Shown here piece after piece: positions 4,544 through 38,015 of a stretch of 64,000 nucleotides of DNA. Every line of letters begins with the position of its first letter. The stretch's first letter is position 1. The position numbers were made by a program, and so were the translations under genes. The notes beneath the pieces are model-generated. The model did no database searches. It was not told the origin of the DNA and saw only the letters and a program-made list of their open reading frames with translations. Location of the stretch: the IMG/VR virus record IMGVR_UViG_3300031707_002920, positions 21,904 to 85,903 of that record; one strand, written 5' to 3'. Origin of the DNA: a virus.

Positions 4544-4550
4544 ATAAATT

Positions 4551-4624: not shown

Positions 4625-4631
4625 TTAACAT

Positions 4632-4705: not shown

Positions 4706-4715
4706 CTATTTCAAT

Positions 4716-4785: not shown

Positions 4786-4809
4786 TATTGCTATTTCTAG
4801 TAAAATGAT

Positions 4810-5133: not shown

Positions 5134-5191
5134 CAGGATAGGGGATCAGATTACGAATCTGATTGTGAGAGTTCGAATCTCTCCAGGCACA
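5119..5191 (+). tRNA. tRNA-Arg (ACG)
   Basis: The acceptor is GTGCCTG/CAGGCAC. The stem TCAGA/TCTGA encloses TTACGAA. A34 would need deamination to inosine. The 5' end overlaps the preceding coding sequence. Confidence 0.9.
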
Positions 5192-5327
5192 CTTTTTTCT
5201 TCATAGTTAATCTCACCTGATTGGTAAATTAAATTTAAAATTTATCATAAGATCAAATTTGAAGAACTGATTAGTTCGTGAAAAATGTATAGAAATTTAT
5301 AAATGTACTAAACTAAAAAGGATCTTT

Positions 5328-18502: not shown

Positions 18503-18786
18503 GTAGAGCAGCTATATCAATCTACGCAAAGCAGGTTGATTATAAAAGTTATGAGAACTACAATTGAAGTAGCTCCTGATAAACGAAGAATTTGGCGACA
18601 ATGGTGTAAGAAATTTAAATTAAGTAGTGTAAAGTTATTTGATAAATTAATTGAGAAGATCGAGCAACGACAACAACAAGAGTTTTATAATTCATTGCCA
18701 AGACCTATAAAATATGTTAAGCCATTGGAAAATAAAAGAATTAGGAAATTTGTATACAAAAAATAGGTTCATATAATAACTAGTTG
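18473..18786 (+). repeat. 314-bp duplicated segment, copy 1
   Basis: It spans the end of the helicase gene, the small gene at 18551 and the bases up to ..ATAATAACTAGTTG. The same sequence recurs 1003 bp downstream at 19476-19789, apparently without difference. Both copies end exactly at a cassette start (GTTG). Confidence 0.9.
18551..18766 (+). CDS. Small basic protein before the cassette array (copy 1)
   Basis: A 71-residue protein rich in Arg, Lys and Gln, with a helical middle (KLFDKLIEKIEQRQQQEF) and a basic tail (NKRIRKFVYKK). ATG 18551 is used; an in-frame TTG at 18536 sits on the AGCAGG motif. It resembles small nucleic-acid-binding proteins only in charge. It is the last core gene before the array and is present twice. 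Confidence 0.6.
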   Translation: MRTTIEVAPDKRRIWRQWCKKFKLSSVKLFDKLIEKIEQRQQQEFYNSLPRPIKYVKPLENKRIRKFVYKK

Positions 18787-18790
18787 CACG
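18767..18790 (+). promoter_or_regulatory. Candidate attI-like insertion site
   Basis: The sequence ..ATAATAACTAGTTG marks the border between core phage DNA and the first cassette. The identical border at 19789 is followed by a different cassette, which is what repeated insertion at one attachment site would give. No integrase gene is adjacent. Confidence 0.45.
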
Positions 18791-18822
18791 CAATAGGCCG
18801 CGAACCATGTTGGAGGTGAATT

Positions 18823-19056
18823 TTGGAAACGAGAATTATTCGTAACGCCAGTTGTAAATGTAGCGATTGCATGGGACCGGAGCGGGGTATCTGCCCTCGT
18901 AAGGGTTTCCAAAATTCACGGAGCACTAAGGAGTCGCGGCCTACAGTCCGGCGAAACGCCCGTGCAACAGACAAAGTGCGCCATGTAGATGATGGCCGTG
19001 TCGTTCCAGTAGATGGGTATGGTCAGCACAGCCACCCCGATTTTTTTCACGATTGA
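18823..19056 (+). CDS. Cassette 1: Cys-rich small protein
   Basis: TTG 18823 follows GGAGG at 18812-18816 with good spacing. The 77-residue product has CKCSDCMGPERGICP near the N-terminus, a possible zinc site, and a basic middle. The C-terminal third is encoded by the attC-like site. The start of the cassette (GTTGCACGCAATAGGCCGCG) pairs with CGCGGCCTACA..CCCGTGCAAC upstream of CAAC, with a 13-base interruption. Function unknown. Confidence 0.55.
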   Translation: METRIIRNASCKCSDCMGPERGICPRKGFQNSRSTKESRPTVRRNARATDKVRHVDDGRVVPVDGYGQHSHPDFFHD

Positions 19057-19082
19057 TTACGGCGCACGTTTGTCAACCGTTG
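18965..19082 (+). repeat. attC-like site 1
   Basis: CAAC-A-GACAAA-GTGCGCC pairs with GGCGCAC-G-TTTGTC-AACC-GTTG; the single G is an extrahelical base. Confidence 0.85.
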
Positions 19083-19122
19083 TTTGCAATTGTCAATTTC
19101 TCTTATATACTGAGGTGGCGCT

Positions 19123-19362
19123 ATGATGACAGAACGGTGCGGAAGGTGTGCGAATCTAAGTGGGTTATGTGCTATGGTCGGCTGTGGTGGCTTCGTCGAG
19201 AAAGCGCCACTGGAAGCTGTGGAAGAAATTGCCAACAGCACACAACAAACCAATGGCGCAGGGGCTGAAGCCACATTACCGCCCAGGTGCCTCATCACTG
19301 GTTGTTACGACGATGCAGAACCTACATCTGTGTTCTGTGCGTGGCATAATATAGGGCGGTAA
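19123..19362 (+). CDS. Cassette 2: Cys-rich small protein
   Basis: ATG 19123 follows GAGGTGG. The 79-residue product begins MMTERCGRCANLSGLCA and ends with CLITGCYDDAEPTSVFCAWH, two Cys/His clusters that could bind one or two metals. The 3' half of the gene runs through the attC-like site. Unknown family. Confidence 0.6.
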   Translation: MMTERCGRCANLSGLCAMVGCGGFVEKAPLEAVEEIANSTQQTNGAGAEATLPPRCLITGCYDDAEPTSVFCAWHNIGR

Positions 19363-19384
19363 CGTCGCCATTGGTCAAACGTTG
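19243..19384 (+). repeat. attC-like site 2
   Basis: CAAC-AA-ACCAATGGCG pairs with CGCCATTGGT-CAAAC-GTTG. Confidence 0.8.
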
Positions 19385-19445
19385 TAAGAAATGCTGGCCG
19401 TTCTGAAATTATAGGGCGGCGGCAAAACCAAAACAAGGAGAAAAC

Positions 19446-19505
19446 ATGAAACGCATTATCGAGAAGTACGACCACCAATGGTTTATCGACGCTTGTCAAT
19501 TTTAA
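19446..19505 (+). CDS. Cassette 3: chimeric 19-codon frame at a recombination joint
   Basis: The first 97 bp of this cassette (19381-19477) match the start of cassette 8 (21274-21370). They then join the 3' end of the helicase gene from the 314-bp repeat. The frame reads MKRIIEKYDHQ followed by WFIDACQF, the helicase C-terminus. It is a product of an illegitimate joint, not a functional gene. Confidence 0.7.
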   Translation: MKRIIEKYDHQWFIDACQF

Positions 19506-19789
19506 GTAGAGCAGCTATATCAATCTACGCAAAGCAGGTTGATTATAAAAGTTATGAGAACTACAATTGAAGTAGCTCCTGATAAACGAAGAATTTGGCG
19601 ACAATGGTGTAAGAAATTTAAATTAAGTAGTGTAAAGTTATTTGATAAATTAATTGAGAAGATCGAGCAACGACAACAACAAGAGTTTTATAATTCATTG
19701 CCAAGACCTATAAAATATGTTAAGCCATTGGAAAATAAAAGAATTAGGAAATTTGTATACAAAAAATAGGTTCATATAATAACTAGTTG
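19476..19789 (+). repeat. 314-bp duplicated segment, copy 2
   Basis: Copy of 18473-18786 with an offset of 1003 bp, embedded in the array. Its right edge is again followed directly by a cassette start. Confidence 0.9.
19554..19769 (+). CDS. Small basic protein (copy 2)
   Basis: Same 71-residue sequence as at 18551, carried by the duplicated segment. I see no difference between the copies, so the duplication is recent or an assembly effect. Confidence 0.6.
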   Translation: MRTTIEVAPDKRRIWRQWCKKFKLSSVKLFDKLIEKIEQRQQQEFYNSLPRPIKYVKPLENKRIRKFVYKK

Positions 19790-19828
19790 TCGGAAATTCC
19801 GCGCAGGTTTTATGATTGGAGGCGGCGC

Positions 19829-20059
19829 ATGAGAGATAGTGATTTCAAACGCAAATTGTTCTGGGAGTGCATCGACAATCTGGGATCGAAGGGGCGTAGC
19901 AGCGCCGCTAAACTGGCGGAACCTGCGCTCCACATCCCACAACAGGGCCAGCACAAAATTTGCCCTCAATGTGGTGGCAATCTTGTGGAGATGTATCAGG
20001 CTGATGTTTACATTTGCAATGATTGCGGTATCAAGGTTACGGGCAAACTTCGTGCGTAG
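19829..20059 (+). CDS. Cassette 4: zinc-ribbon protein
   Basis: ATG 19829 follows GGAGGCGGCGC. The 76-residue product is a basic helical N-terminus (RDSDFKRKLFWECIDNLGSK) followed by a single zinc ribbon, CPQCGGNL...YICNDCGIK. The ribbon lies inside the attC-like site, so hairpin arms encode protein. The function is unknown; a nucleic-acid adaptor is plausible. Confidence 0.7.
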   Translation: MRDSDFKRKLFWECIDNLGSKGRSSAAKLAEPALHIPQQGQHKICPQCGGNLVEMYQADVYICNDCGIKVTGKLRA

Positions 20060-20071
20060 CCCGAACCGTTG
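19940..20071 (+). repeat. attC-like site 4
   Basis: CAAC-A-GGGC..GCAC..TTTGCCC pairs with GGGCAAA..GTGC..GCCC-GAACC-GTTG. Confidence 0.85.
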
Positions 20072-20112
20072 TATGCAACCGGTCACGCGACCATATTGTA
20101 AAGGGGCGACAA

Positions 20113-20436
20113 ATGACAATCATCCAGGCGTTATCAAGCATTCGCGGTGAGTTGGAGGAAGCGGAGCGCAAGTTCCCCTCGTTTCCTACAGACCCGGTAC
20201 ACGCCGCCGCAATAGTGGTTGAGGAAGCTGGTGAGCTACAACAGGCAGCATTGCAGTTTACGTATGAAGGCGGCGGCTGGGCTGAGTTGCACAACGAGGC
20301 TGTGCAGGTTGGCGCGATGGCGCTCCGCTTTCTTTGTCACATAGATTCGATGAAGAGTCGTCCCTCCGAGCAGGTGGAGCGCGTGCCCGGCAGCATACAA
20401 CAGGGCCAGCACGAAACGGCGGCTGACAAGGGGTAG
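20113..20436 (+). CDS. Cassette 5: MazG-like pyrophosphohydrolase-type protein
   Basis: ATG 20113 follows AAAGGGG. In 107 residues, AAAIVVEEAGELQQAALQF and EAVQVGAMALRFL resemble the EExxE and following ExxD helices of MazG-type NTP pyrophosphohydrolases, though the second motif lacks the usual Asp, so activity is uncertain. Such enzymes hydrolyse NTPs or dNTPs and may affect alarmone or dNTP pools. The C-terminus GSIQQGQHETAADKG comes from the attC-like arm. Confidence 0.6.
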   Translation: MTIIQALSSIRGELEEAERKFPSFPTDPVHAAAIVVEEAGELQQAALQFTYEGGGWAELHNEAVQVGAMALRFLCHIDSMKSRPSEQVERVPGSIQQGQHETAADKG

Positions 20437-20479
20437 GGGATTATAGGCCGCCGCATCGTGCGAGTGGCCCGGGACGTTG
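20398..20479 (+). repeat. attC-like site 5
   Basis: CAAC-A-GGGCCA-GCACGA..GGCGGC pairs with GCCGCC..TCGTGC..TGGCCC-GGGAC-GTTG. Confidence 0.83.
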
Positions 20480-20548
20480 TAAGAAATTCGCCCCGCTTTG
20501 AGAATATTTAGGCGAGCGCGAAAACCAAAAACAAAAAAGGAGAAACAA

Positions 20549-20884
20549 ATGCAAGCAGGACCGGTATCGATATTTCAGTCCCCGAATATTGTAAGGGACC
20601 TTCGTGTCTTGCCCGAGTTTAAGACCGTTGCACAACAATTTCGAGATGATTTAGGGCACAAAATGGTGGAGCACAAAAAGAAAATCAAAACTGACGGTAA
20701 TAAACTGTGTGGATTTATTGTGTCTCCTGAGTACAAAGCTATGTTACTTACTTTTTGCCAGGACCTTGTTCAGCTACCTACTATTATGGGTGAGTTACCT
20801 ATGCTGTACGGGATGCCCATTGAAGATGGAGAGGTCTCAAATATCGCGTTCAAATTTGAAAAAGACGCGCTCGCAGGACACTAA
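20549..20884 (+). CDS. Cassette 6: unknown 111-aa protein
   Basis: ATG 20549 follows AAAAAAGGAGAAACAA. The product is mixed alpha/beta with one hydrophobic stretch (FCQDLVQLPTIMGELPMLYG) and no Cys motif. It ends before the attC-like site, unlike many other cassettes. Its leader GTTGTAAGAAATTCGCCCC pairs with GGGGCGAACATCTTACAAC after the stop. Not recognised. Confidence 0.65.
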   Translation: MQAGPVSIFQSPNIVRDLRVLPEFKTVAQQFRDDLGHKMVEHKKKIKTDGNKLCGFIVSPEYKAMLLTFCQDLVQLPTIMGELPMLYGMPIEDGEVSNIAFKFEKDALAGH

Positions 20885-20905
20885 GGAGGCGGGGCGAACA
20901 TCTTA

Positions 20906-20992
20906 CAACACAGCAAGGGATGCCAGAAACGCAGGACATTAAGGATTGAATTTTATTATAGGCGTTTCCAGCACCCGTTGCTGAACGCGTTG
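20906..20992 (+). repeat. attC-like site 6
   Basis: CAAC-A-CAGCAA-GGG..GAAACGC pairs with GCGTTTC..CCC-G-TTGCTG-AACGC-GTTG. About 85 bp are identical to site 8. Confidence 0.85.
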
Positions 20993-21035
20993 GTTGAAAT
21001 TCCAGTCGATTTATTTTATTGAAAGGTTGCGAATT

Positions 21036-21248
21036 ATGTTTGTTCCAATTTGGCTGCTTATCGTCTTATCGGGGTTTGGTTGCTGGGGCACACTTATATT
21101 CATCAATGCCATTCGCAACAGGAAATCTAAGGTGGTATCTCCTTCCGCATTCGCACAACAGGCAAAGTGTGCCATGCTTCCGTGTCTCGGCTATTTAGAA
21201 TCTGAGTGTGAAAATTGTAGCAACTACAATCTGTACCGTAAACCGTAG
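21036..21248 (+). CDS. Cassette 7: small membrane protein
   Basis: ATG 21036 follows GAAAGGTTG. The 70-residue product has one transmembrane helix (residues 3-24, PIWLLIVLSGFGCWGTLIFI), a short basic loop (RNRKSK) and a Cys-rich C-terminal part (CAMLPCLG...CENCSNYN). Probably an inner-membrane peptide with a cytoplasmic metal site. Its terminal arms match poorly, so the cassette may be hybrid. Confidence 0.65.
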   Translation: MFVPIWLLIVLSGFGCWGTLIFINAIRNRKSKVVSPSAFAQQAKCAMLPCLGYLESECENCSNYNLYRKP

Positions 21249-21277
21249 CGGCACGGCACACATTTGCCGAACCGTTG
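21156..21277 (+). repeat. attC-like site 7
   Basis: CAAC-A-GGCAAA-GTGTGCC pairs with GGCACAC-A-TTTGCC-GAACC-GTTG. Confidence 0.87.
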
Positions 21278-21338
21278 TAAGAAATGCTGGCCGTTCTGAA
21301 ATTATAGGGCGGCGGCAAAACCAAAACAAGGAGAAAAC

Positions 21339-21689
21339 ATGAAACGCATTATCGAGAAGTACGACCACCAGTTTATCAAAGATGGTAAGCGCATTTTCTG
21401 TACCTATGTTACTGTGCCATTTTCAGAGTTGCCTGAAGACTGTGATTTTTCTGGATTGGATGTGTCTATTATCAACGTGCTGTATGATGACTGTCACATC
21501 GCTGTTACGGGGTTTGATAGCAATCAAAACGGTATCTCAGTAGAGATACCCCCTACGCTGAAATTTCTATTTTATAAGGCAAGGGAGCAAGGTCAAGCGG
21601 TGTGTGCTGAATTGCTGACGAAGCATAACTTTGAAACAAACTGCATCAAGTTCAAAAAGGATATAGGGTACAGTAACACGGTAGCATAA
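21339..21689 (+). CDS. Cassette 8: unknown 116-aa protein
   Basis: ATG 21339 follows CAAGGAGAAAAC. The protein is a compact alpha/beta domain with no signal or metal motif (YVTVPFSELPEDCDFSGLDV near residues 24-43). The cassette leader GTTGTAAGAAATGCTGGCCG pairs with CGGCCAGCACATCTTACAAC after the stop, and GGGCGGCGGC pairs with GCCGCCGCC further in. Its first 97 bp recur at 19381. Function unknown. Confidence 0.7.
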   Translation: MKRIIEKYDHQFIKDGKRIFCTYVTVPFSELPEDCDFSGLDVSIINVLYDDCHIAVTGFDSNQNGISVEIPPTLKFLFYKAREQGQAVCAELLTKHNFETNCIKFKKDIGYSNTVA

Positions 21690-21733
21690 GAGAGCCGCCG
21701 CCAAGACATTAGGGATACGGCCAGCACATCTTA

Positions 21734-21818
21734 CAACACAGCAAGGGATGCCAGAAACGCAGGACATTAAGGATTGAATTTTATTATAGGCGTTTCCAGC
21801 ACCCGTTGCTGGGCGTTG
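21734..21818 (+). repeat. attC-like site 8
   Basis: Same hairpin as site 6; it differs only at the right spacer (TTGCTG-GGC-GTTG). Confidence 0.85.
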
Positions 21819-21847
21819 GTGGAAATAAACTTTTCTTTGGAGGTTAT

Positions 21848-22114
21848 ATGTTTGCCGAATTTGACAAGGTGATTAGGTGCCTTGCGTTGGAGTTACCCGA
21901 GTCCGTACATGCCGATGTTGTGGCGAAGTACGGCAAACTGAAAGCTGAGGTGGAAAAGTTTACATCCACCAACAGCGCTATGGATGCAATAAACGCTTAC
22001 ATTAAGGAATATGATAGCAAGCTGATTACTACTCCCGATGAAAAATGTGCATTGGCGGTGTGTGAATTTACGGATAAGTATGCTAATATTTTTAGGCGTT
22101 TACTGCACCAGTAG
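21848..22114 (+). CDS. Cassette 9: unknown 88-aa protein
   Basis: ATG 21848 follows GGAGGTTAT. The product is helical and charged, with no Cys motif. TSTNSAMDAI is encoded across the CAAC end of the attC-like site, so about 45 C-terminal residues lie inside the site. AAACTTTTC in the leader pairs with GAAAAGTTT upstream of CAAC. Not recognised. Confidence 0.65.
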   Translation: MFAEFDKVIRCLALELPESVHADVVAKYGKLKAEVEKFTSTNSAMDAINAYIKEYDSKLITTPDEKCALAVCEFTDKYANIFRRLLHQ

Positions 22115-22125
22115 CGCAGACGTTG
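21970..22125 (+). repeat. attC-like site 9
   Basis: CAAC-A-GCGCTA-TGG pairs with CCA-G-TAGCGC-AGAC-GTTG; the central loop is long. Confidence 0.75.
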
Positions 22126-22165
22126 GGTGCAATTCGCGCCCGACCATATGATAGGCGGTTTCGCT

Positions 22166-22453
22166 ATGAAGATATGTCGAAAGTGTAGTATCGTTTACGA
22201 GAATCGTACTTGCCCGCTGTGTAATCTGCGCAAGCACGATAATCTTGTCCACGACTTCATCGAGTCAAAGGGACGAAGTCTTGTTCGGGAGTTGGTAGCC
22301 TATTTGCAGCACCGCGAAACCGCAGCAGATAGCGGAGCGGGCGCGAACAGCACCCAACATTCGCAGCACAAAAGTTGCCCTACATTCAACCGAGATTGTC
22401 ATTTCTCTGTTGTCAAGATACAGTGTACGAATGCCGGAGATTGTCCATGTTAA
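22166..22453 (+). CDS. Cassette 10: zinc-ribbon protein
   Basis: ATG 22166 is preferred over an upstream in-frame GTG at 22127, which lies in the leader. Residues 4-20 (CRKCSIVYENRTCPLCN) form a zinc ribbon, followed by a helical middle (VHDFIESKGRSLVRELVAYL) and a Cys-containing tail. The last third is encoded within the attC-like site. Unknown role. Confidence 0.6.
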   Translation: MKICRKCSIVYENRTCPLCNLRKHDNLVHDFIESKGRSLVRELVAYLQHRETAADSGAGANSTQHSQHKSCPTFNRDCHFSVVKIQCTNAGDCPC

Positions 22454-22486
22454 ACGGGCAACCTTCGTGCGGTGCGGTGAACGTTG
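22355..22486 (+). repeat. attC-like site 10
   Basis: CAAC..CGCA-GCAC..GTTGCCC pairs with GGGCAAC..GTGC-G-GTGCG..AAC-GTTG. The upstream GCGGGCGCGAACAG arm pairs with the cassette leader. Confidence 0.78.
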
Positions 22487-22533
22487 GTGTAAATTTCGGT
22501 CGCTCTAAAACACGAATTATAGGAGGCGCAAAA

Positions 22534-22809
22534 ATGTCAGGAACGATTTATCATACGTGTTCGGTATGTGGAAGCGAAATGTATCCGAAGATTGGAGGGC
22601 GATCAAACGGCGACACCATAACAGAGTTTGTCATGGTGCCGTGTAAGATTTGCGCCTCTGAAAAAGAGGAATCCGCTCCCTCCGCATCCACCAACAGCGC
22701 TATGGTGTCATTGTGCTTAAAATGTAAATATACTTTTTCTTGTATAATGGCTGGTGAACACGTGCGAGAATCTTGTCCTACAAATGAGTTCGCACAACGG
22801 CACCAGTAG
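22534..22809 (+). CDS. Cassette 11: double zinc-ribbon protein
   Basis: ATG 22534 follows AGGAGGCGC. The 91-residue product has CSVCGSEM...VPCKIC and a second LCLKCKYTFSC...ESC cluster, the second one encoded within the attC-like site. SASTNSAM at the site's left edge repeats the peptide seen in cassettes 9, 12 and 16. Unknown function. Confidence 0.65.
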   Translation: MSGTIYHTCSVCGSEMYPKIGGRSNGDTITEFVMVPCKICASEKEESAPSASTNSAMVSLCLKCKYTFSCIMAGEHVRESCPTNEFAQRHQ

Positions 22810-22820
22810 CGCGGACGGTG
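22692..22820 (+). repeat. attC-like site 11 (variant core GGTG)
   Basis: CAAC-A-GCGCTA-TGGTG pairs with CACCA-G-TAGCGC-GGAC, but the right core is GGTG instead of GTTG. Confidence 0.7.
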
Positions 22821-22850
22821 GTGTAAATAAACCGCGCTTGGAGGTTATAG

Positions 22851-23087
22851 GTGGCCGCCGATGAAGTGCTTCGATTTATGATCCGATGGTTTGCGCGACA
22901 CGATACGCCGCCGACGGTTCGCCAGGTATGGAAAGCGGCCACGAAAGCAGCGGAGGCGCGGTTTACATCCACCAACAAAGCAAGTGCGCCATGCCCACAG
23001 TGTGTAGATTTTGGCGCTATTCCGCCGCTTGTCAACTATTGTAAAACCTGTGGCCGTAAGCTACATGAGCACGGCGCACGTTGCTGA
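22851..23087 (+). CDS. Cassette 12: helical zinc-ribbon protein
   Basis: GTG 22851 follows GGAGG at 22840-22844. The 78-residue product is a helical N-terminus (DEVLRFMIRWFARHDTPPTVRQVWK, close to a short winged-helix or phage antirepressor-like segment) and a C-terminal ribbon CPQC...YCKTCGRKLHEH encoded in the attC-like site. Confidence 0.6.
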   Translation: MAADEVLRFMIRWFARHDTPPTVRQVWKAATKAAEARFTSTNKASAPCPQCVDFGAIPPLVNYCKTCGRKLHEHGARC

Positions 23088-23094
23088 ACCGTTG
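22973..23094 (+). repeat. attC-like site 12
   Basis: CAAC..AGCAA-GTGCGCC pairs with GGCGCAC-G-TTGCT-GAACC-GTTG. Confidence 0.83.
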
Positions 23095-23147
23095 TAAGAA
23101 ATGCTCACCATTTTTGAATTTATGGGTGGGCGCAAAAAGGAGACCTA

Positions 23148-23468
23148 ATGCAGAACGTTTACGATGTTTTAAAATACAGGTTGTCTTTTATCTATGTTGT
23201 GTTAGCCTACACCTATTTGGTGTTAGCCTACATTTTTTGTATCATCATTAGTCCTTTGGGATTATTTTTAATGCTTTTTGAAAAACCTAAAATATGTTGT
23301 GTATGTAATAAGCGTATTGGTAAAAAAGAAGCTTGGACAAGTTATATTCATAGACCTGCTCATTATTCGTGTGTAGAAAACAAATGGTCATACTGGTATC
23401 AATTTGGCCCTATGGATAATCCTGATTATTGGCGTTATTTAGGTAGGAGTGCGCCCACAGAACAATAA
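23148..23468 (+). CDS. Cassette 13: membrane protein with Cys motif
   Basis: ATG 23148 follows AAAGGAGACC. Residues 12-45 are strongly hydrophobic (one or two membrane spans containing the repeat VLAYTYL/VLAYIF). A cytoplasmic part follows with CCVCNKRIGKKEAW and HYSC, a treble-clef-like Cys/His set, and an aromatic tail. 106 residues. The whole gene lies outside the attC-like site. Unknown. Confidence 0.65.
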   Translation: MQNVYDVLKYRLSFIYVVLAYTYLVLAYIFCIIISPLGLFLMLFEKPKICCVCNKRIGKKEAWTSYIHRPAHYSCVENKWSYWYQFGPMDNPDYWRYLGRSAPTEQ

Positions 23469-23489
23469 GGAAATGGTGAGCACATCTTA

Positions 23490-23553
23490 CAACAAACAAA
23501 TGGTGCCGAAGACTAAATCGTGAGTACACGACTTCACCATTTGTTGGACGTTG
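23490..23553 (+). repeat. attC-like site 13 (shortest complete)
   Basis: CAAC-A-AACAAATGGTG pairs perfectly with CACCATTTGTT-GGAC-GTTG. The leader GTTGTAAGAAATGCTCACC pairs with GGTGAGCACATCTTACAAC just upstream. Confidence 0.88.
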
Positions 23554-23600
23554 TACGCAAGTTTGGCGGTTCTGAATTTGATAGGCCGCCGAGGAGAAAT

Positions 23601-23969
23601 ATGGCATACCTTCATTGTCACAAGTGCGGCTGGTCACAGGATGATTTTTGGTATTGGCGGTGGTCTGGCCTCAAACAGTTTTGGAGGTGGCGGCATATGC
23701 CATTTGGCTATAATCCCGTTTCTCTTATTCTCGAAGATTTTGCCGAATACTGGAAGCCGCGCATGATAGGAATGGACTGTGTTTGGGCGCGTGAAAATGG
23801 TTTTAAAAGTAGTAATATTTTTCTTGGCATATTATGCTTTGGTCAATGGGTCGTCATGCGCGGCGTGTATTTAGTCAACGGTGGTGGTTTGACGATCAGT
23901 TTAAACGGGATTATAAAAACAATAAGGCCAAATGTCCTTCGTGCAAGTCACCAGATGATTTTGATATAG
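23601..23969 (+). CDS. Cassette 14: zinc-ribbon protein, probably frameshifted
   Basis: ATG 23601 follows GAGGAGAAAT. The N-terminal LHCHKCGWSQDDFW looks like a zinc/aromatic motif found in small phage proteins. The annotated frame ends without a partner motif. Another frame downstream of 23830 reads RWWFDDQFKRDYKNNKAKCPSCKSPDDF and ends at TAA near 23973, the expected second half. A frameshift between about 23812 and 23830, in ATATTTTTCTT, would join them. Confidence 0.55.
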   Translation: MAYLHCHKCGWSQDDFWYWRWSGLKQFWRWRHMPFGYNPVSLILEDFAEYWKPRMIGMDCVWARENGFKSSNIFLGILCFGQWVVMRGVYLVNGGGLTISLNGIIKTIRPNVLRASHQMILI

Positions 23970-24014
23970 ACTAATCGGCGGCAGAAGAATATTGAAACCG
24001 CCAAACCAGACGTA

Positions 24015-24091
24015 CAACAGCCGCAGCTTGAAACGGCTTTACACTAATGATTATGTTTTTGTAGGCCGCATCAAGCGTGCGGCAAACGTTG
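24015..24091 (+). repeat. attC-like site 14
   Basis: CAAC-A-GCCGCA-GCTTGA pairs with TCAAGC-G-TGCGGC-AAAC-GTTG. Confidence 0.83.
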
Positions 24092-24143
24092 TAGTCAATG
24101 CCGTGCCGAGTCTTTATTGTAGGTGCGGCCATAAGGAGCAAGT

Positions 24144-24371
24144 ATGTTTTCATGGATGCATCGTGGTAAAGTTGAACGACCTATGTCCGAATTTCATGCC
24201 GAGTATATGGCCACACAGAGAGCAAAAGAGGAGTCGGCACGTCACAGCCTACAACAGCTAAAGGCTGAAATTGCCGCTACTATGCTTCCAGCTATTGTGG
24301 CATTAAGTAAAGGTGATATGATTACAGTCGCTAAATGTATTGACGAACTGCGGCAACTATCAGCCGTTTAG
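24144..24371 (+). CDS. Cassette 15: helical protein ending LRQLSAV
   Basis: ATG 24144 follows AAGGAGCAAGT. The 75-residue product is helical. QQLKAEIA..LRQLSAV is encoded by the two arms of the attC-like site, and the same ending occurs in cassettes 24 and 25, whose N-terminal parts differ. The shared tail therefore reflects the recombination site more than protein family. Confidence 0.6.
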   Translation: MFSWMHRGKVERPMSEFHAEYMATQRAKEESARHSLQQLKAEIAATMLPAIVALSKGDMITVAKCIDELRQLSAV

Positions 24372-24380
24372 CGAACGTTG
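24252..24380 (+). repeat. attC-like site 15
   Basis: CAAC-A-GCTAAA-GGCTGA pairs with TCAGCC-G-TTTAGC-GAAC-GTTG. Confidence 0.86.
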
Positions 24381-24420
24381 GTTGAAATTCCAGTCATGCT
24401 TTTTATGTTTGGAGGCGAAC

Positions 24421-24639
24421 ATGCTGTACTTTATCATAGGATGTCTAATAATCGGGTTGTTTATCTCGTTTTCAATAGGTTGGTGGTGTGGCGAACGGCA
24501 TGTTCGCAGAAACACTATGGTAGGCATTCCTTCCACATCAACCAACAGCAAAAGTACGCCATGTAAATGCACCTCAGTGCCGTTGGTAATATCTGAGAAG
24601 TGTAGATGTCGTATCTGTGGTCGAGTGTGGGTTCAGTAA
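24421..24639 (+). CDS. Cassette 16: small membrane protein with zinc-ribbon tail
   Basis: ATG 24421 follows GGAGGCGAAC. One transmembrane helix (residues 2-21, LYFIIGCLIIGLFISFSIGW) is followed by basic residues and a C-terminal CKC...CRCRICGRVW. The domain order resembles cassettes 7 and 26. The C-terminal half is encoded by the attC-like site. Confidence 0.65.
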   Translation: MLYFIIGCLIIGLFISFSIGWWCGERHVRRNTMVGIPSTSTNSKSTPCKCTSVPLVISEKCRCRICGRVWVQ

Positions 24640-24664
24640 CACGGCGTACATTTTGCGGACGTTG
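24543..24664 (+). repeat. attC-like site 16
   Basis: CAAC-A-GCAAAA-GTACGCC pairs with GGCGTAC-A-TTTTGC-GGAC-GTTG. Confidence 0.87.
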
Positions 24665-24725
24665 TAAGAAATGCGGTTGGCTCTGAAAATTATAAGCCGC
24701 CGCTAAAATCAAAACAAGGTATCAC

Positions 24726-25121
24726 ATGAAATTATCATCCTGCTCTCAAAAATTATATGGTAAACCTTTTTCAGATCTCACAGACTCTGAAAAAATAACA
24801 GTTAGAAAAGAAACTGCAAAATTAACTGTAGAAGAAGAACTCGAAAAACAAACCAAACGCGAACAAGAGTGGCATGACAGAATCGAGGATCCTGGACAAT
24901 GGTTCTGCCCCCGATGCGGTCATAAACTAGAACCGGTAAGCAAGGACAATGAAGACTGGGGAGATTTTTGTAGCGGATACCATGAGGAGCACGGCACTTT
25001 CTGGTTTCTATGCTCTAACAAAGACTGCACTTACAGTGAGGCTCCTCTTGTCGTCCATCATCCTGTTTATGGATGGCAATGCAGATCAGGAGATAGTTGG
25101 GCTATTGGTTACGTCAAATAA
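24726..25121 (+). CDS. Cassette 17: zinc-ribbon protein, 131 aa
   Basis: ATG 24726 follows AACAAGG. An N-terminal charged helix (residues 15-50) precedes WFCPRCGHKLEP and FLCSNKDCTY, a four-Cys ribbon, then a Trp-rich tail. It is the longest single-frame cassette protein and has a more AT-rich codon use than its neighbours. Unknown function. Confidence 0.65.
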   Translation: MKLSSCSQKLYGKPFSDLTDSEKITVRKETAKLTVEEELEKQTKREQEWHDRIEDPGQWFCPRCGHKLEPVSKDNEDWGDFCSGYHEEHGTFWFLCSNKDCTYSEAPLVVHHPVYGWQCRSGDSWAIGYVK

Positions 25122-25165
25122 AGGCAGCGGCGGCGGGAAAGTAAGGAAGCCAACCGCACATCTTA

Positions 25166-25232
25166 CAACAAATGCATGGCGGGGAGTACCCGCAAATTTG
25201 GAGTACCAAACTTCGCCATGCATCGGACGTTG
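25166..25232 (+). repeat. attC-like site 17
   Basis: CAAC-AA-ATGCATGGCG pairs with CGCCATGCAT-CGGAC-GTTG. Nearly identical to site 20. Confidence 0.87.
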
Positions 25233-25266
25233 TAGTCAATTGTCGAGCGCAAAGAAAGGAAATTAT

Positions 25267-25497
25267 ATGCCCGCCGAAGAATTGCTTCCGTGTCGTAAAT
25301 GTGGGGCTCCTGCTGCGCCGATAGCTCCACCGAAAGATGGCTGGTCGTGTTTAATACACTGTTCAAAGTTTTGCGGTTATCATGAGCATGAAGGAACGGT
25401 AGAGAAAACGGTTCTTGCGTGGAATCGGCGGGCGGACACTAAGGAGTGCGCTCGCCAACAGCCTACAACAACCGTATGCCAAAATGTCGACGAGTAA
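25267..25497 (+). CDS. Cassette 18: Lar-like restriction alleviation protein
   Basis: ATG 25267 follows AAAGGAAAT. ELLPCRKCGAPAA (residues 4-16), a middle Cys pair (CLIHCSKFCGY) and TVLAWNRR match the short Lar family: an N-terminal LxPCPxCG, a central Cys pair and a terminal AWNRR. Lar proteins modulate type I restriction-modification and protect incoming DNA. The 76-residue size is normal. The right half of its attC-like site (CAAC at 25466) is missing. Confidence 0.75.
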   Translation: MPAEELLPCRKCGAPAAPIAPPKDGWSCLIHCSKFCGYHEHEGTVEKTVLAWNRRADTKECARQQPTTTVCQNVDE

Positions 25498-25508
25498 CCG
25501 ACGTGACT

Positions 25509-25739
25509 ATGAACGCTCAGATTTTCAGTTCCCTGAGAAAACACGGAAAAGATATGTTGGATGTCTCCTGCTTAGCTAAAGAATTAAAAAAGGGTCTTAT
25601 GGGGACGATGTGGGGTGCTCGCGTGTGGGTTCATAGAGATGCTACAGAAATTAGGTGTTACGGAGAAAATAGTGTTGAGTTTGAAAAGCAATTCCCTTTT
25701 CTCAAGGAGTCTAAAAGAGTTCTCAAAATTAAAGACTAA
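25509..25739 (+). CDS. Cassette 19a: unknown 76-aa protein
   Basis: ATG 25509 starts in a place where a cassette core would be expected, but GTTG is absent, so the left end of this cassette has been lost. The product is a mixed, basic small domain (MWGARVWVHRDATEIRCYGE). A second gene follows within the same unit. Confidence 0.5.
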   Translation: MNAQIFSSLRKHGKDMLDVSCLAKELKKGLMGTMWGARVWVHRDATEIRCYGENSVEFEKQFPFLKESKRVLKIKD

Positions 25740-25770
25740 AAGCCACAAACGAAGAGAGAGGAGGGATGTG

Positions 25771-26160
25771 ATGAGCCGGTCGTACTTTACAACACAGAAA
25801 ATTTCACGTAAGATATTTCCTAATAAAGTGGGAGATAGCATCCTACTTAAAAATGGAGAAAAACTAACTATTGGATCAGATAGAAAGGATATATCTGGAT
25901 CATTCTATCTGACGGATGGGATAGCAAGTGTGTGGTTGTATTTCGATAAGGGCCTTCTCTCTATGTACGATATAAACAATACATTTGCATGGAATGGTAC
26001 TGGAGAGCCATTGCTGAAAAAAATCCGATCATACGTGCGCAAACCAAAAGCAAAAGAGGCACGTCCTGTGCCTAAGAGCCGCCACAAGGACACTATGGTA
26101 GCGCGAAAAATAGCAGCCAACAGCCACAGCCCAAAACAGTGGAAGTTGACTAAGGACTAA
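25771..26160 (+). CDS. Cassette 19b: unknown 129-aa protein
   Basis: ATG 25771 follows GAGAGGAGGGATGTG. The product is beta-rich (DSILLKNGEKLTIG..SGSFYLTDGIASVWLYFD) with a basic C-terminal tail (RKPKAKEARPVPKSRHKD). It is the second gene of an unusual two-gene cassette. The tail is encoded in the attC-like arm. Not recognised. Confidence 0.6.
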   Translation: MSRSYFTTQKISRKIFPNKVGDSILLKNGEKLTIGSDRKDISGSFYLTDGIASVWLYFDKGLLSMYDINNTFAWNGTGEPLLKKIRSYVRKPKAKEARPVPKSRHKDTMVARKIAANSHSPKQWKLTKD

Positions 26161-26201
26161 TTTTATTATAGTCCGCTGCATCGGGCGTGCGGCGGACGTT
26201 G
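26118..26201 (+). repeat. attC-like site 19
   Basis: CAAC-A-GCCACA-GCCC..CAGTGGA pairs, with two mismatches, with TCCGCTG..GGGC-G-TGCGGC-GGAC-GTTG. Confidence 0.72.
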
Positions 26202-26257
26202 TACAAAATTTAACCGCGTCTTGGATTTATAGCCGGGGCGCAAAACAGGAGAAAAAC

Positions 26258-26479
26258 ATGAAAGACACAGAGTTGAGAATTATCAGCGACGGTACTGTTG
26301 CTGGCACACAGGTGGTGGATTCTAAAGGTAACAGGGTCAAATTAGTACAGAAAATAAAATGGGAGTTATCCCTATCGTCTGGTATATCTAAAGTTACATT
26401 GGAAATTGCCAAAACACCTATTGATGTCATCGCCAAAAAAGCAAGAGCGCCCCGGAGGAACATTAAGGAACGCGGTTAA
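26258..26479 (+). CDS. Cassette 20: unknown 73-aa protein
   Basis: ATG 26258 follows ACAGGAGAAAAAC. It is a small beta-rich protein (ELRIISDGTVAGTQVVDSKG) with a basic tail. This cassette has the longest terminal arms: its first 44 bases pair with the bases from GCGCCCCGG to CGTACAAC around 26444-26491, including GTTAAA opposite TTTAAC. Confidence 0.65.
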   Translation: MKDTELRIISDGTVAGTQVVDSKGNRVKLVQKIKWELSLSSGISKVTLEIAKTPIDVIAKKARAPRRNIKERG

Positions 26480-26487
26480 ACTTCGTA

Positions 26488-26554
26488 CAACAAATGCATG
26501 GCGGGGAGTACCCCCAAATTTGGAGTACCAAACTTCGCCATGCATCAAACGTTG
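26488..26554 (+). repeat. attC-like site 20
   Basis: CAAC-AA-ATGCATGGCG pairs with CGCCATGCAT-CAAAC-GTTG; one base in the loop and the spacer differ from site 17. Confidence 0.87.
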
Positions 26555-26589
26555 TGCGAAATAACCGGCGAACCATATTGGAGGCGCGA

Positions 26590-26919
26590 ATGATTCACAA
26601 ACACGATCTGCGTACCGCTATCAGCGATCTCGGGCAGGCTCTGGAGCATGTCGAGCACTATAGTGGTAGGCCGGAAGTTTTTTGCCTTAAGCAGCTTTTG
26701 GTCAATCCACTTTCGTACGCGCAGAACAATGGGAGTCGCCGGTTACATCGCACAACAGCGAAAGTGCGCAATGTCAACACAATTTTCAAGAGTCTATTTG
26801 TATTCGCTGTGGTAAAAAATTGTGATGCCACAGCGCACGTTTCGCGAGACGTTGGTTGCAATGGTCTTCTTAAATTTATTATAGGCGGCGCAAATGGCAA
26901 TTCCATTTTTCAAATGTAG
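26590..26919 (+). CDS. Cassette 21: helical protein, frame crosses cassette border
   Basis: ATG 26590 follows GGAGGCGCGA. The first 40 residues (HDLRTAISDLGQALEHVEHY) look like a real helical domain. The frame then crosses the GTTG at 26851 into cassette 22, which no other cassette gene does. In another frame ICIRCGKKL ends in TGA near 26822. A frameshift around 26700-26720 would give a normal zinc-ribbon ending inside the cassette. Confidence 0.45.
   Translation: MIHKHDLRTAISDLGQALEHVEHYSGRPEVFCLKQLLVNPLSYAQNNGSRRLHRTTAKVRNVNTIFKSLFVFAVVKNCDATAHVSRDVGCNGLLKFIIGGANGNSIFQM
26753..26854 (+). repeat. attC-like site 21
   Basis: CAAC-A-GCGAAA-GTGCGC pairs with GCGCAC-G-TTTCGC-GAGAC-GTTG. Confidence 0.86.
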
Positions 26920-27130
26920 TAAACATGGTGTTGTGAAGTTCAGGGTTATTCACGAGTGCGAGGTATGCGCCGCTGAAAACCGCTGTACTCAGCCCACAGA
27001 CAACCAACATACGCAGCTTGCAATTGCAGCTCTTCGCGGCGCGTTGTCTCGGTTGCCCGTCAATCTTGGCATGGTAGATCAGATATTGGTTGCCTTCGAG
27101 GAAGAGCTGCAACAGCAAGCGAGTGCGTAA
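26894..27130 (+). CDS. Cassette 22: small protein related to the second locus
   Basis: ATG 26894 follows ATAGGCGGCGC. An N-terminal CSKH..HECEVC metal motif is followed by QHTQLAIAALRGALSRLPVN...VDQILVAFEEELQQQ. The second part is closely similar to the C-terminal part of the gene at 63336, and both are encoded by the attC-like arms plus loop. Function unknown. Confidence 0.65.
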   Translation: MAIPFFKCSKHGVVKFRVIHECEVCAAENRCTQPTDNQHTQLAIAALRGALSRLPVNLGMVDQILVAFEEELQQQASA

Positions 27131-27137
27131 AACGTTG
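27005..27137 (+). repeat. attC-like site 22
   Basis: CAAC-A-TACGCA-GCTTGC..TTGCAGCTC pairs with GAGCTGCAA..GCAAGC-G..TGCGTA-AAAC-GTTG. Confidence 0.87.
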
Positions 27138-27216
27138 GCCGAAACTCCACGGCCAAAACGAATATAGATAGGCGGCATTATGCGGCCAAAGCGCCGCACT
27201 GCGCATAATCGCGGGC
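27134..27216 (+). mobile_element. Cassette 23: 83-bp remnant cassette without a gene
   Basis: It starts with GTTGGCCGAAAC and keeps a leader (ATAGATAGGCGGC) but has no CAAC half-site and only the right part of a stem before the next GTTG at 27217. A 19-codon frame from ATG 27180 crosses the border. It looks like an internally deleted cassette. Confidence 0.6.
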
Positions 27217-27260
27217 GTTGTACGCAATGGGCTTCTTAAATTTATTGGAGGTGGTTGCTT

Positions 27261-27497
27261 ATGTCAAAATGCAATAGTTGCGGTCGTGAGCCTCTTGAAT
27301 ATGTAACAAGGTGTGTGCGTTGCGGAGCGGCGCAACCACTGGAAAGCAGCGGTACTCAGCCCACAGACGTACAACAGCTAAAGGCCGAAATCGCCATGTG
27401 TGCGGCGTTGCTTGAGCCTTTATTCGGGGCGACTGAGGAACAAAGTAAGGTCATTACCGATGTCACGCAAAGACTGTGGCGACTATCAGCCGTTTAG
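27261..27497 (+). CDS. Cassette 24: zinc-ribbon protein ending LRRLSAV-type
   Basis: ATG 27261 follows GGAGG at 27247-27251; an upstream TTG in frame is less likely. The 78-residue product has CNSCGREPLEYVTRCVRCGAA at the N-terminus and QQLKAEIAM...LWRLSAV from the attC-like arms, as in cassettes 15 and 25. Confidence 0.65.
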   Translation: MSKCNSCGREPLEYVTRCVRCGAAQPLESSGTQPTDVQQLKAEIAMCAALLEPLFGATEEQSKVITDVTQRLWRLSAV

Positions 27498-27506
27498 CAA
27501 ACGTTG
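27372..27506 (+). repeat. attC-like site 24
   Basis: CAAC-A-GCTAAA-GGC pairs with GCC-G-TTTAGC-AAAC-GTTG. Confidence 0.82.
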
Positions 27507-27541
27507 TATGCCATTTACATTTTCTCGGAGGTTATAGGCAC

Positions 27542-27763
27542 ATGGCTATATGCGGTACGAATCAATGCGTAGAGTGCGAGCTGTATATACACTGCATACG
27601 ACATGTGCGCGACGTAGTTCCGCCATGTGCAAAAAATGTAAACCAGCTAAAAGCCGAAATTCGCGCATTGCTAAACGACAATTGTGAGTTTTACGAAAGT
27701 AACGCTTCGTTAAGTAACATTAGCGCGTTTTTGTTCAAATTGCGCGAACTATCGGCTGTTTAG
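27542..27763 (+). CDS. Cassette 25: Cys/His-rich protein ending LRELSAV
   Basis: ATG 27542 follows CGGAGGTTATAGGCAC. The 73-residue product has CGTNQCVECELYIHCIRH, a likely metal site, then NQLKAEIRAL and LRELSAV from the recombination-site arms. The ending is shared with cassettes 15 and 24. Confidence 0.6.
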   Translation: MAICGTNQCVECELYIHCIRHVRDVVPPCAKNVNQLKAEIRALLNDNCEFYESNASLSNISAFLFKLRELSAV

Positions 27764-27773
27764 CAAATCGTTG
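27641..27773 (+). repeat. attC-like site 25 (degenerate left core)
   Basis: The left core reads AACC instead of CAAC. CTAAA-AGCCGA still pairs with TCGGCT-G-TTTAG before the right GTTG. Confidence 0.6.
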
Positions 27774-27812
27774 TGCGCCATTAGAACCAGTCTTTATATC
27801 GAGAGGTAAAAC

Positions 27813-28046
27813 ATGTTTGCTTTGCAGTTAGTAGCACTCGTGCTGATTCTGTCTGCCGCTGCCCTCATAGTTACGATGCTTTTATTGGGTGTCGTAAGTT
27901 CGTTTTCGTCAAGTAAATGGTTCTGTACATCAATGGGTTGGCATCGTCAGCCAGACTCCATAGGCTTTGATGGCTGCTCGATGCTTGGTTGCTGTCCTCG
28001 GTGCGGCAAACATGTTTTACTGGATAGTCAAGGTAACTGGTTCTAA
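27813..28046 (+). CDS. Cassette 26: membrane protein with phage-type Cys motif
   Basis: ATG 27813 follows GAGAGGTAAAAC. One transmembrane helix (about residues 4-30) precedes WFCTSMGWHRQPDSIGFDGCS...GCCPRCGKHVLLDSQGNWF. The CxRCGK..DSQGNWF ending recalls small phage proteins of lambdoid and T-type genomes, function unknown. The leader GTTGTGCGCCATTAGAACC pairs with GGTTCTAACAGCGCACAAC after the stop. The right half of the site is missing. Confidence 0.65.
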   Translation: MFALQLVALVLILSAAALIVTMLLLGVVSSFSSSKWFCTSMGWHRQPDSIGFDGCSMLGCCPRCGKHVLLDSQGNWF

Positions 28047-28077
28047 CAGCGCACAACAAATAGACAAGGAGATTTAT

Positions 28078-28386
28078 ATGGCGCGCAAGATTGTAAAGTT
28101 CGATGTTCAGCAGGTGCCGAATGATTATTGGAGTCAGTGTCACTACATATCGTGGTGTCTGTGCGACGACGGTACTATGTGGGAATTGCAAGATAATGAA
28201 AGCGCGTGGCGTCAGTTGCCTGTACCGGGGTGCGCGCCGGACACTGTGGAAGGCGCAAATTTACATCCACCAAGTGTGCCAGTTTGCCCTTCATGGTGTA
28301 AGGATACGTCAAGTGGTACGTGGGGGTGTTTGAAGGGCAAACCAGCACACATTTTGAAAGGTGGCGATCATGTCAACAGACATTAA
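28078..28386 (+). CDS. Cassette 27: unknown 102-aa protein
   Basis: ATG 28078 follows AAGGAG. DDGTMWELQDNESAWRQLPVPGC resembles small phage proteins with a D-GT-W motif. Five Cys and several Trp occur. It directly follows the CAAC half-site of cassette 26 with no GTTG between them, so this cassette has lost its left end. It overlaps the next gene by 17 bases. Confidence 0.55.
   Translation: MARKIVKFDVQQVPNDYWSQCHYISWCLCDDGTMWELQDNESAWRQLPVPGCAPDTVEGANLHPPSVPVCPSWCKDTSSGTWGCLKGKPAHILKGGDHVNRH
28268..28357 (+). repeat. attC-like site 27 (degenerate)
   Basis: CCACCAA-GTGTGC-CA-GTTTGCCC pairs with GGGCAAAC-CA-GCACAC-ATTTTG, but both terminal cores are altered. Confidence 0.55.
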
Positions 28387-28723
28387 CGTAGGTTTGGGAG
28401 AGTTTAAACTATTAGAGAGATTTGTGGTAGCTATGGAGCGAATCGCCACCAAACTGGAGGAAATCGCTCCTTCCACACCAACTAACAAAAGTGTGCCATT
28501 ATCTAAAACTAGTTATAAATTTCCAGAAACTGGAGTCTTTTTGGATATCCCTGTCAAAGCTCATTGGGTTCATAAAAATGTTAGTGAGATGAAAGAGGTC
28601 CGTATTTTTGGTAACATTTTAAAACTGGCTGAAACTTATGACATAATGATAACGCGGTCAGATTCTGAAAAATTGGTAATTTATATCGATGAGCCAGGAA
28701 AAAAATTCCGAATAAGAGGTTAA
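28370..28723 (+). CDS. Cassette 28: unknown 117-aa protein
   Basis: ATG 28370 follows AAAGGTGG. EFKLLERFVVAMERIATKLEEIA is a helix of the type common at the start of small phage proteins. A CAAC-type left half-site is embedded at 28479 (encoding STPTNKS) without a right partner, so the gene continues beyond it into AT-rich sequence. It may be a fusion across a lost cassette border. Confidence 0.55.
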   Translation: MSTDINVGLGEFKLLERFVVAMERIATKLEEIAPSTPTNKSVPLSKTSYKFPETGVFLDIPVKAHWVHKNVSEMKEVRIFGNILKLAETYDIMITRSDSEKLVIYIDEPGKKFRIRG

Positions 28724-28813
28724 AAGGATATTTTATGATCTGGATAGAGGTAAACAATTTGGAATTATTGTCAATGTGGAAACAATGTGTACTTTTTAGA
28801 ATTGGAGGGTGCA

Positions 28814-29089
28814 ATGAAAGTTTTGCCGTTGTGTGATACGTCTGGACACGATATGGAGATTGTTGCTGAAACAGACTTTGAGGCGGAGTGGCTTAAATGT
28901 CATTTCAAGGTTTGGCGCGGTGTAGATGGATTTGTTGATGATACAACAGTAGGTGGTGTTCGCCTCAAAGTCAAGAGCGCATGGTGGGATTGCACTAGAG
29001 CACTGGCGGAAGCGCACACACAGCCTACAACAGCGCCATGCGGTACGGGGCAGAAGCCCCAAATTGCCGAAGCGTCAACTTCCGCATAG
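28814..29089 (+). CDS. Cassette 29: unknown 91-aa protein, last of the array
   Basis: ATG 28814 follows GGAGG. The product is an alpha/beta domain (VVAETDFEAEWLKCHFKVW-like core) with a low-complexity tail from the site arms (AHTQPTTAPCGTGQKPQIAEA). Not recognised. Confidence 0.6.
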   Translation: MKVLPLCDTSGHDMEIVAETDFEAEWLKCHFKVWRGVDGFVDDTTVGGVRLKVKSAWWDCTRALAEAHTQPTTAPCGTGQKPQIAEASTSA

Positions 29090-29100
29090 CGCAAACTTGG
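29038..29100 (+). repeat. attC-like site 29 (terminal, core CTTG)
   Basis: CAAC-A-GCGCCATGCGG pairs with CCGCATAGCGC-AAAC-CTTG with one mismatch. It marks the right end of the array; AT-rich phage sequence follows. Confidence 0.72.
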
Positions 29101-33948: not shown

Positions 33949-34344
33949 ATGCCAAGATGGGACAAGTCAAACAAGGCGACCTATAATTTGGGATACCACT
34001 TAATCTGGTGCCCCAAGTACCGACGCAAAGTCTTGGTTGGAGATGTAGAGAAAAGACTCAAAGAGCTGTTCCATGAAAAGGCAAAGGAGCTTTCTATTTC
34101 TATTGAGAAAATGGAAGTCATGCCCGATCATGTTCATCTTTTCGTTAAATGCTCTCCAGTCAATTCTCCTCATCTGATCGTAAAGCACCTCAAGGGATAC
34201 AGTTCGAGAGTGATGAGGATAGAGTTCCCAAAATTGAAATCAAGACTCCCGTCACTGTGGACCCGATCCTACTACTGTGAATCGATAGGTCACATTTCAG
34301 AAGAGACAATCAAAAAGTACATCGACGACCAAAAGAACAAATGA
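33949..34344 (+). CDS. tnpA: IS200/IS605 TnpA, HUH (Y1) transposase
   Basis: The 131-residue protein has MPDHVHLFV (the HUH metal-binding His pair near residues 62-64) and KYIDDQKNK near the C-terminus with the catalytic Tyr. ATG 33949 follows GGGAGG. It overlaps tnpB by four bases. It would excise and insert the element as single-stranded DNA. Confidence 0.93.
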   Translation: MPRWDKSNKATYNLGYHLIWCPKYRRKVLVGDVEKRLKELFHEKAKELSISIEKMEVMPDHVHLFVKCSPVNSPHLIVKHLKGYSSRVMRIEFPKLKSRLPSLWTRSYYCESIGHISEETIKKYIDDQKNK

Positions 34345-37824: not shown

Positions 37825-38015
37825 AATTTCGTTTTTTAAAAGATGTCACAGTTTATAGTTGCATAATAATATAGATTTTAGTAAGTTATCATCATTTTTG
37901 AATAATTAAATTATGAACATGCGATGAGCCACAATTCACAAGGTTTTAACTCTCGATGGTTATGCTCACTAAAAATAATTGTTGACAATAAACTGGAGTG
38001 TTATACATTAAGATT
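37825..38015 (+). other. Gap between the two polymerase genes
   Basis: About 190 bases with stops in all frames. A 17-codon frame (MKFRFLKDVTVYSCIII) starts in the ATGA overlap after the first gene. TTGACA occurs at 37982-37987. I do not see intein ends here, so I do not call trans-splicing. Confidence 0.4.

Follow-up and report, generated by a model that had tools for sequence, protein, structure and literature searches.

The window analysed here, a stretch of 64,000 nucleotides (nt) corresponding to bases 21904–85903 of the 85.9-kb phage record IMGVR_UViG_3300031707_002920, carries a tandem array of small gene cassettes between a DinG-type helicase gene (phrog_2488) and a TnpB-type gene (phrog_506). 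About 25 clear one-gene units, all on the + strand, follow one another from 18783 to 28057, each with GTTG at its start, a single small gene and a CAAC..GTTG hairpin at its end, and the GC content rises from 33.8% outside the array to 45.7% within it. An original prediction, made from the letters of the sequence, had described an integron-like array of this layout with these neighbours in AT-rich phage surroundings, and the layout, the neighbours and the difference in composition are all as it said. Its count of about 29 units extending to 29100 was too generous: the array itself is there, but 28058–29100 holds only decayed remnants.

The hairpins were defined strictly as CAAC, 1 nt, 6 base pairs (bp), one extra base on the 3' arm, 6 bp, 4–5 nt and GTTG. 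The + strand of the array has twelve such hairpins and the rest of the 64 kb has none, whichever strand is read, compared with an average of 0.02 in Markov shuffles of the array. The predicted scheme of R box, spacer and L box with one extrahelical base holds for these 12; the base, a single one, lies in most of them on the R' (3') arm, as it does in 33 of the 40 hairpins with an extra base across loci, and this is the arm opposite to that of integron attC sites, whose extrahelical bases are defined on the R''-L'' arm (PMC2727003). Hairpins are long where the open reading frame (ORF) runs into them and short where it stops earlier, and because their length goes with the type of upstream ORF, each hairpin belongs to the gene preceding it.

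A feature missed in the original prediction is that each unit has ends complementary to each other over about 40 nt, far past the R box, with helices of 9, 10 and 8 bp. Pairing of a unit's own ends averages -44.1 kcal/mol, against -22.5 kcal/mol for the ends of different units and -22.3 kcal/mol for those of neighbours, and none of 20000 permutations was as low, so that folding, in the hairpins and in this stem alike, goes far beyond that of shuffled sequence. One pairing profile describes 76 units from 13 loci: positions 0–8 are paired, 9–10 unpaired and 11–20 paired, followed by a loop of about 14 nt and a further paired stretch at 36–42. The unpaired positions 9–10 are AA opposite A and C, a fixed 2x2 mismatch. 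The helices vary between units yet still pair, with 3–4 Watson-Crick types at nearly all positions (covariation). An excised circle, or a folded linear cassette, gives one long rod consisting of L hairpin, spacer, R box and R extension, and the own-end stem would have its role in this folded site. Three cassettes of related arrays (L126:5127-5350, L126:8914-9010 and L145:4873-5340) have the same ends and no clear ORF, and resemble structured non-coding RNA genes.

Three DNA patterns derived from the hairpins were used to find further arrays, and 19 other virus records, contigs of 213, 219, 168 and 131 kb among them, have the same architecture with different genes. A strict own-end signature is found in 18 of the 20 array loci, in none of 13 integron loci and not in shuffles; the integron loci comprise the class 1 integron of an E. 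coli plasmid, Tetrasphaera phage TJE1, Shewanella phage M16-3 and ten gammaproteobacterial IntI loci, the last ten being sequence controls compared by signature counts and not by individual attC sites. The 14-mer GTTGTAAGAAATGC was discarded as an array probe in viral contigs (120 matches, mostly chance). A scan of cellular genome contigs with CAACAGCTAAAGGCYGAAAT gave two matches, both without arrays, and no cellular host was found there; blastn of the array against isolated phages and plasmids gave no match. By tblastn, the cassette proteins matched only a MazG-like protein in Erwinia/Dickeya jumbo phages, apart from one weak match in a huge phage.

The core starts with GTTR, mostly GTTG, and continues with KNNG (for example GTTGTAAG, GTTGTACG and GTTGGTTG), and it conforms to neither GTTRRRY nor RYYYAAC, a departure from integron cores that had been noticed at the outset. 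An integrase of the IntI type had been suggested as the enzyme to look for. A PF00589 profile search found no recombinase in the window's 85.9-kb record, but two tyrosine recombinase genes lie directly upstream of, and co-directional with, the arrays of related phages: that of G007 (L128:4149-4949) is followed within 6 nt by an array starting at 4956, and that of G019 (L166:2953-3807) is followed after about 27 nt by an array starting at about 3835. Both records are phages, with portal and baseplate genes in the first and TerL, portal and major head genes in the second. The two proteins are 32% identical and conserve the R, K, H, R, H and Y residues. By profile and by structure, the L128 recombinase is most like XerA (4a8e, 5hxy; NF040815) and IntI, with all profiles below curated cut-offs (TIGR02249, 125.5 bits against a cut-off of 265) and a structure model of moderate quality (a pLDDT, or predicted local distance difference test score, of 61.7). 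From the GKG motif to HxLRH the phage recombinases measure 57 and 66 residues, compared with 106–107 in IntI and 64–72 in Xer proteins, and the integron-specific insert of about 40 residues (I2 helix) is absent from both. Integron integrases are thought to require this extra domain, which Xer recombinases lack, for folded single-stranded sites. In the tree, the IntI clade excludes the phage recombinases with a support of 100 and the L128 and L166 proteins pair with a support of 89; a grouping of the phage recombinases with IntI and one with Bacteroidota XerA-like proteins are both compatible with the data, neither being rejected. A third recombinase relative (L213, 27%) has no array. A 439-residue protein of L125, from the 416-kb relative G002, was set aside, since its PF00589 match is weak and below cut-off and by eye it resembles a type IB topoisomerase.

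These results bear on the alternative that fares best, in which the array is an ordinary CALIN (a cluster of attC sites lacking an integrase) with standard attC sites, movable by the IntI of a bacterial host and acquired by the phage. Phage integrons and CALINs with standard GTTRRRY attC sites and IntI have been reported, and IntI1 uses 5 of 6 tested phage attC sites (PMC9892861). The scheme of R box, unpaired spacer and extrahelical base is common to both, as are the GTTR start of the core and apparent folding of the bottom strand. We nevertheless regard this origin as unlikely, considering that the cores depart from GTTRRRY, the extrahelical base, by the definition given above, falls on the other arm, the spacer is 1/4–5 nt, the own-end stem is absent from the 13 integron loci and the recombinases adjoining arrays are not IntI.

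The units also behave as single mobile cassettes. Among 49 neighbouring pairs, core positions 4–8 can pair with R'' of their own unit in 80–100% and with R'' of the unit upstream in 10–61%, and because they pair with their own unit and not with the upstream neighbour, the crossover should fall within GTTG. The same 286-bp cassette is found in L162, where it is internal, and in L164, where it stands behind a flank that is not a cassette. The flanks are unrelated, the copies have a single difference, at core position 4, and identity ends at the core on both sides; a single cassette that stands in two phages and is delimited exactly by the core argues that the units move. A gene with its following site, gained or lost individually at the core, is what the link between hairpin and ORF, the own-end pairing and this exchange together describe. 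Gene order is not fixed either, this cassette standing in two contexts and the closest relatives by DinG, L003 and L004 (82% and 68% identical), having no array at this place. The 117-kb contig G008 begins exactly at a core; the start of L165 at a core was not used as evidence of an assembly branch, since it is not at its contig's end.

Units bounded by hairpins could instead be mobilised by a Y1 TnpA transposase of the IS200/IS605 insertion sequence type, with the TnpB encoded from 29373 as its partner. TnpB genes do lie beside or near the array, hairpins are typical of IS605 ends and the record G006 has a Y1 transposase. However, a search of 13 related records, most of which have arrays and which did not include the window's own, found the Y1 domain (PF01797) in only one. 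The units have no TnpA, their boundaries are the GTTG core common to the recombinase-linked arrays, and TnpB does not adjoin the arrays of L126, L128, L145 and L166, which makes this alternative very improbable.

The strand that folds can be judged from mismatches, which were counted with a finder handling both strands alike. On the + strand, A.C mismatches outnumber G.T by 31 to 5 in the R stems (p = 1.3e-5) and by 17 to 1 in the hairpins (p = 1.4e-4). Because A.C on the + strand equals G.T on the bottom strand, the bottom strand is likely to be the folded molecule, by an evolutionary argument from mismatch bias, as it is in integrons, whose attC bottom strand is the folded substrate (PMC2727003). 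The same counts speak to the idea that the array acts at the RNA level, with messenger RNA folding through unit ends and hairpins for expression control and no mobility of DNA. In many units the ribosome-binding site falls within or close to the stem, and some units of L126 and L145 have no ORF and resemble structured RNA; G.U pairs, which selection on RNA should have made frequent, are, however, nearly absent on the + strand (5 in 68 stems x 14 positions) and outnumbered by A.C mismatches, a search of Rfam gave no match, and cassette exchange breaks exactly at the core. We give this explanation slightly less credence still than transposition by a Y1 enzyme.

A perfect direct duplication of 314 bp breaks into the array near its start and contains the end of the DinG gene, a small 76-residue ORF and the array-start site. 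Identity of the copies stops exactly after the GTTG core and a different cassette stands behind each; the unit at 19381 is cut short at the second copy, and the 97 nt left of it repeat, without a difference, those with which the unit at 21274 begins. Either an alternative arrangement from the population was joined by the assembler, or the duplication is real. That the array as a whole is false, made up of repeats or mis-assembled from a mixed phage population, is the least credible proposal, this duplication and the repeated cassette start notwithstanding, as 19 other virus records have arrays built alike but with different genes, and repeats between units are short.

The array-start site, TATAATAACTA-GTTG, occurs twice in the window, upstream of cassettes, and the exact 15-mer precedes the array of L132. 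Near-matches stand at the array starts of L168 (TATAATAACGA) and L128 (TATAATAAGAA, overlapping the recombinase stop codon). The array starts of L126, L162, L164 and L166 differ from the window motif, some being behind terminators or other sequence. Two arrays of one phage stand behind the same terminator-like hairpin (GGTTGCC..GGCAACC TTTTG; L126:3783-3842 and 10413-10471). In attI1 an inverted L box ending in AAC is followed by a short spacer and GTTR, and the array-start site of the window resembles this layout. Judged from its sequence and position, TATAATAACTA-GTTG likely has the role of attI.

Taken together, we consider it probable that the window holds a phage-borne integron-like cassette array, with bottom-strand folding, a XerA/IntI-type recombinase and attI-like entry. 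The array appears integron-like in its working, yet its sites, and the recombinases linked to such arrays in two related phages, do not have the features that define attC and IntI, and a separate lineage, as originally proposed, is the best reading of the sites and the I2-less recombinases. We lean, with less assurance, towards a distinct class of phage integron whose recombinase is I2-less and whose single-stranded DNA site is doubly extended; this class would be the sister of the bacterial integron or would have arisen independently from a XerA-type recombinase, and it is possibly a very old separate version of the integron. The bottom strand of a cassette would fold during DNA replication or another single-stranded stage, with the hairpin providing the L arm, and an R arm with a long extension coming from the ends of the cassette itself or, in an excised circle, from its joined ends. 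The recombinase would cleave within the GTTG core, cassettes would be excised and inserted singly, entering at the attI-like site beside the DinG gene, and in the window's phage the enzyme would be provided in trans or come from a gene in the part of the genome that the record lacks. Several points weigh against this account. The link to a recombinase is based on two phages, and 17 of the 19 other array-bearing records, some of more than 200 kb, have none, so that most arrays must depend on supply in trans, come from incomplete records or be relics. The evidence of exchange is one cassette in two contigs, the 3' end of the array is decayed, and assembly may have created the 314-bp duplication. 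The mismatch test presumes an equal mutation bias on both strands, and its excess sits partly at a few positions (about 5 G.T against 22 A.C in the same table without the top positions R5, R7, R8 and hairpin 10).

Cassettes of this and related arrays encode small proteins, many with zinc-ribbon cysteines and most without any family; one product resembles a C5-methylase, one is a membrane protein of the DUF3307 family and one is Lar-like. In our reading the system lets phages store and exchange small accessory genes, and one may speculate that some act, for instance, against host defences. It could be a route for the gain and loss of small genes in jumbo phages (those for a probable DNA methylase, a Lar-like protein and many zinc-ribbon proteins), and it provides a new structured-DNA substrate for work on recombination.

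Features of the array and its borders (positions in the window; all on the + strand)
Feature	Positions	Strand	Details
DinG-type helicase gene	16883..18502	+	phrog_2488; borders array, not a member
314-bp perfect direct repeat, copy 1	18473..18786	+	ends exactly after GTTG core
attI-like array-start site	18772..18786	+	TATAATAACTA-GTTG, without upstream hairpin; 15-mer exact at L132 array start, near-matches L168, L128
cassette 1	18783..19078	+	ORF 18823-19056; own-end stem 18783/18965; hairpin 18965-19082
cassette 2	19079..19380	+	ORF 19123-19362; stem 19079/19243
cassette 3, truncated	19381..19477	+	97 nt = start of cassette 21274
314-bp repeat, copy 2	19476..19789	+	second attI-like site 19775-19789
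cassette	19786..20067	+	zinc-ribbon-like ORF 19829-20059
cassette	20068..20475	+	ORF 20113-20436, MazG-like by eye, no Pfam match over cut-off
cassette	20476..20988	+	ORF 20549-20884; short hairpin, conserved apex ACATTAAGGA..TTATTATAG
cassette	20989..21273	+	ORF 21036-21248
cassette	21274..21814	+	ORF 21339-21689; ends GTTGTAAGA..GGCGGCGGC / GCCGCCGCC..TCTTACAAC
cassette	21815..22121	+	ORF 21848-22114, extending into hairpin
cassette	22122..22482	+	ORF 22166-22453
cassette	22483..22815	+	ORF 22534-22809
cassette	22816..23090	+	ORF 22851-23087; divergent core CGGTGG instead of GTTG
cassette	23091..23549	+	ORF 23148-23468; own-end inverted repeat 44 nt
cassette	23550..24087	+	ORF 23601-23969
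cassette	24088..24376	+	ORF 24144-24371, QLKAEI..LRQLSAV type
cassette	24377..24660	+	ORF 24421-24639
cassette	24661..25228	+	ORF 24726-25121
cassette	25229..26197	+	Lar-like ORF 25267-25497 (below Pfam cut-off), two more ORFs, decayed internal site
cassette	26198..26550	+	ORF 26258-26479
cassette	26551..26850	+	ORF start 26590
cassette	26851..27133	+	ORF 26894-27130
short unit	27134..27216	+	no clear gene
cassette	27217..27502	+	ORF 27261-27497
cassette	27503..27769	+	ORF 27542-27763
last intact own-end stem	27770..28057	+	ORF 27813-28046; own hairpin missing
decayed cassette and hairpin remnants	28058..29100	+	
TnpB-type gene	29373..30632	+	phrog_506; borders array, probably not a member

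Elsewhere in the window there is a second TnpB-type gene (34341–35366), and neighbouring ORFs at 35551–37824 and 37998–41528 match the N- and C-terminal parts of the phrog_405 DNA polymerase, a split polymerase. The polymerases of L003 and L004 are broken in a similar way, and in L003 an intein-like sequence lies near the end. Twelve transfer RNA genes and a transfer-messenger RNA gene with an unusual predicted tag peptide lie at 156–5192 and 8893–9304.

Among known systems, the phage CALINs resemble the array in being integrase-less cassette arrays in phage genomes (PMC9892861), but TJE1, M16-3 and MW202573 (first 30 kb) are without the own-end signature, and P12002L has one marginal own-end match in its CALIN region against 0.1 expected. 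In sequence and fold the L128 recombinase comes closest to the XerA-type recombinases of Archaea and Bacteroidota, which are of the same size and likewise without the IntI insert; no cassette array of this kind adjoins the Bacteroidota or plasmid relatives examined. In the open literature, with subscription papers and preprints outside its scope, we found no report of a cassette system combining this site with an I2-less recombinase.

The likeness to integrons is broader, comprising one-gene cassettes in one orientation, a GTTR core, R and L boxes, an unpaired spacer, an extrahelical base, probable folding of the bottom strand, crossover in the R' core, and an array that adjoins a tyrosine recombinase of the XerA/IntI superclade and follows a simple attI-like site ending AAC-TA-GTTG. 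The differences are that the recombinases lack the IntI-specific insert, the core is GTTGKNNGMAAT and not GTTRRRY, the extrahelical base is on the R' arm with a 1/4–5 nt spacer, the cassette ends are complementary over about 40 nt with a fixed 2x2 mismatch, and the system is phage-borne, with a recombinase co-directional with the array and many ORFs extending into the hairpin. A viral origin of integrons has been proposed with no candidate named (PMC4792948). This phage cassette system is widespread, and its I2-less linked recombinases and different site geometry make the question of integron origin testable; were it a sister of the bacterial integron, that would support the suggested viral origin. 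Ordinary class 1 cassettes offer a further comparison: aac(6')-Ib and aadA16 have a 12-bp own-end match, GTTAGRCATCAY, shorter than that of the phage units but longer than the 7-bp R box (reverse complement of L159 1501-5000, positions 315/892 and 2220/3033). The own-end extension may have a minor counterpart in such cassettes, and is perhaps a general, little-noted cassette trait.

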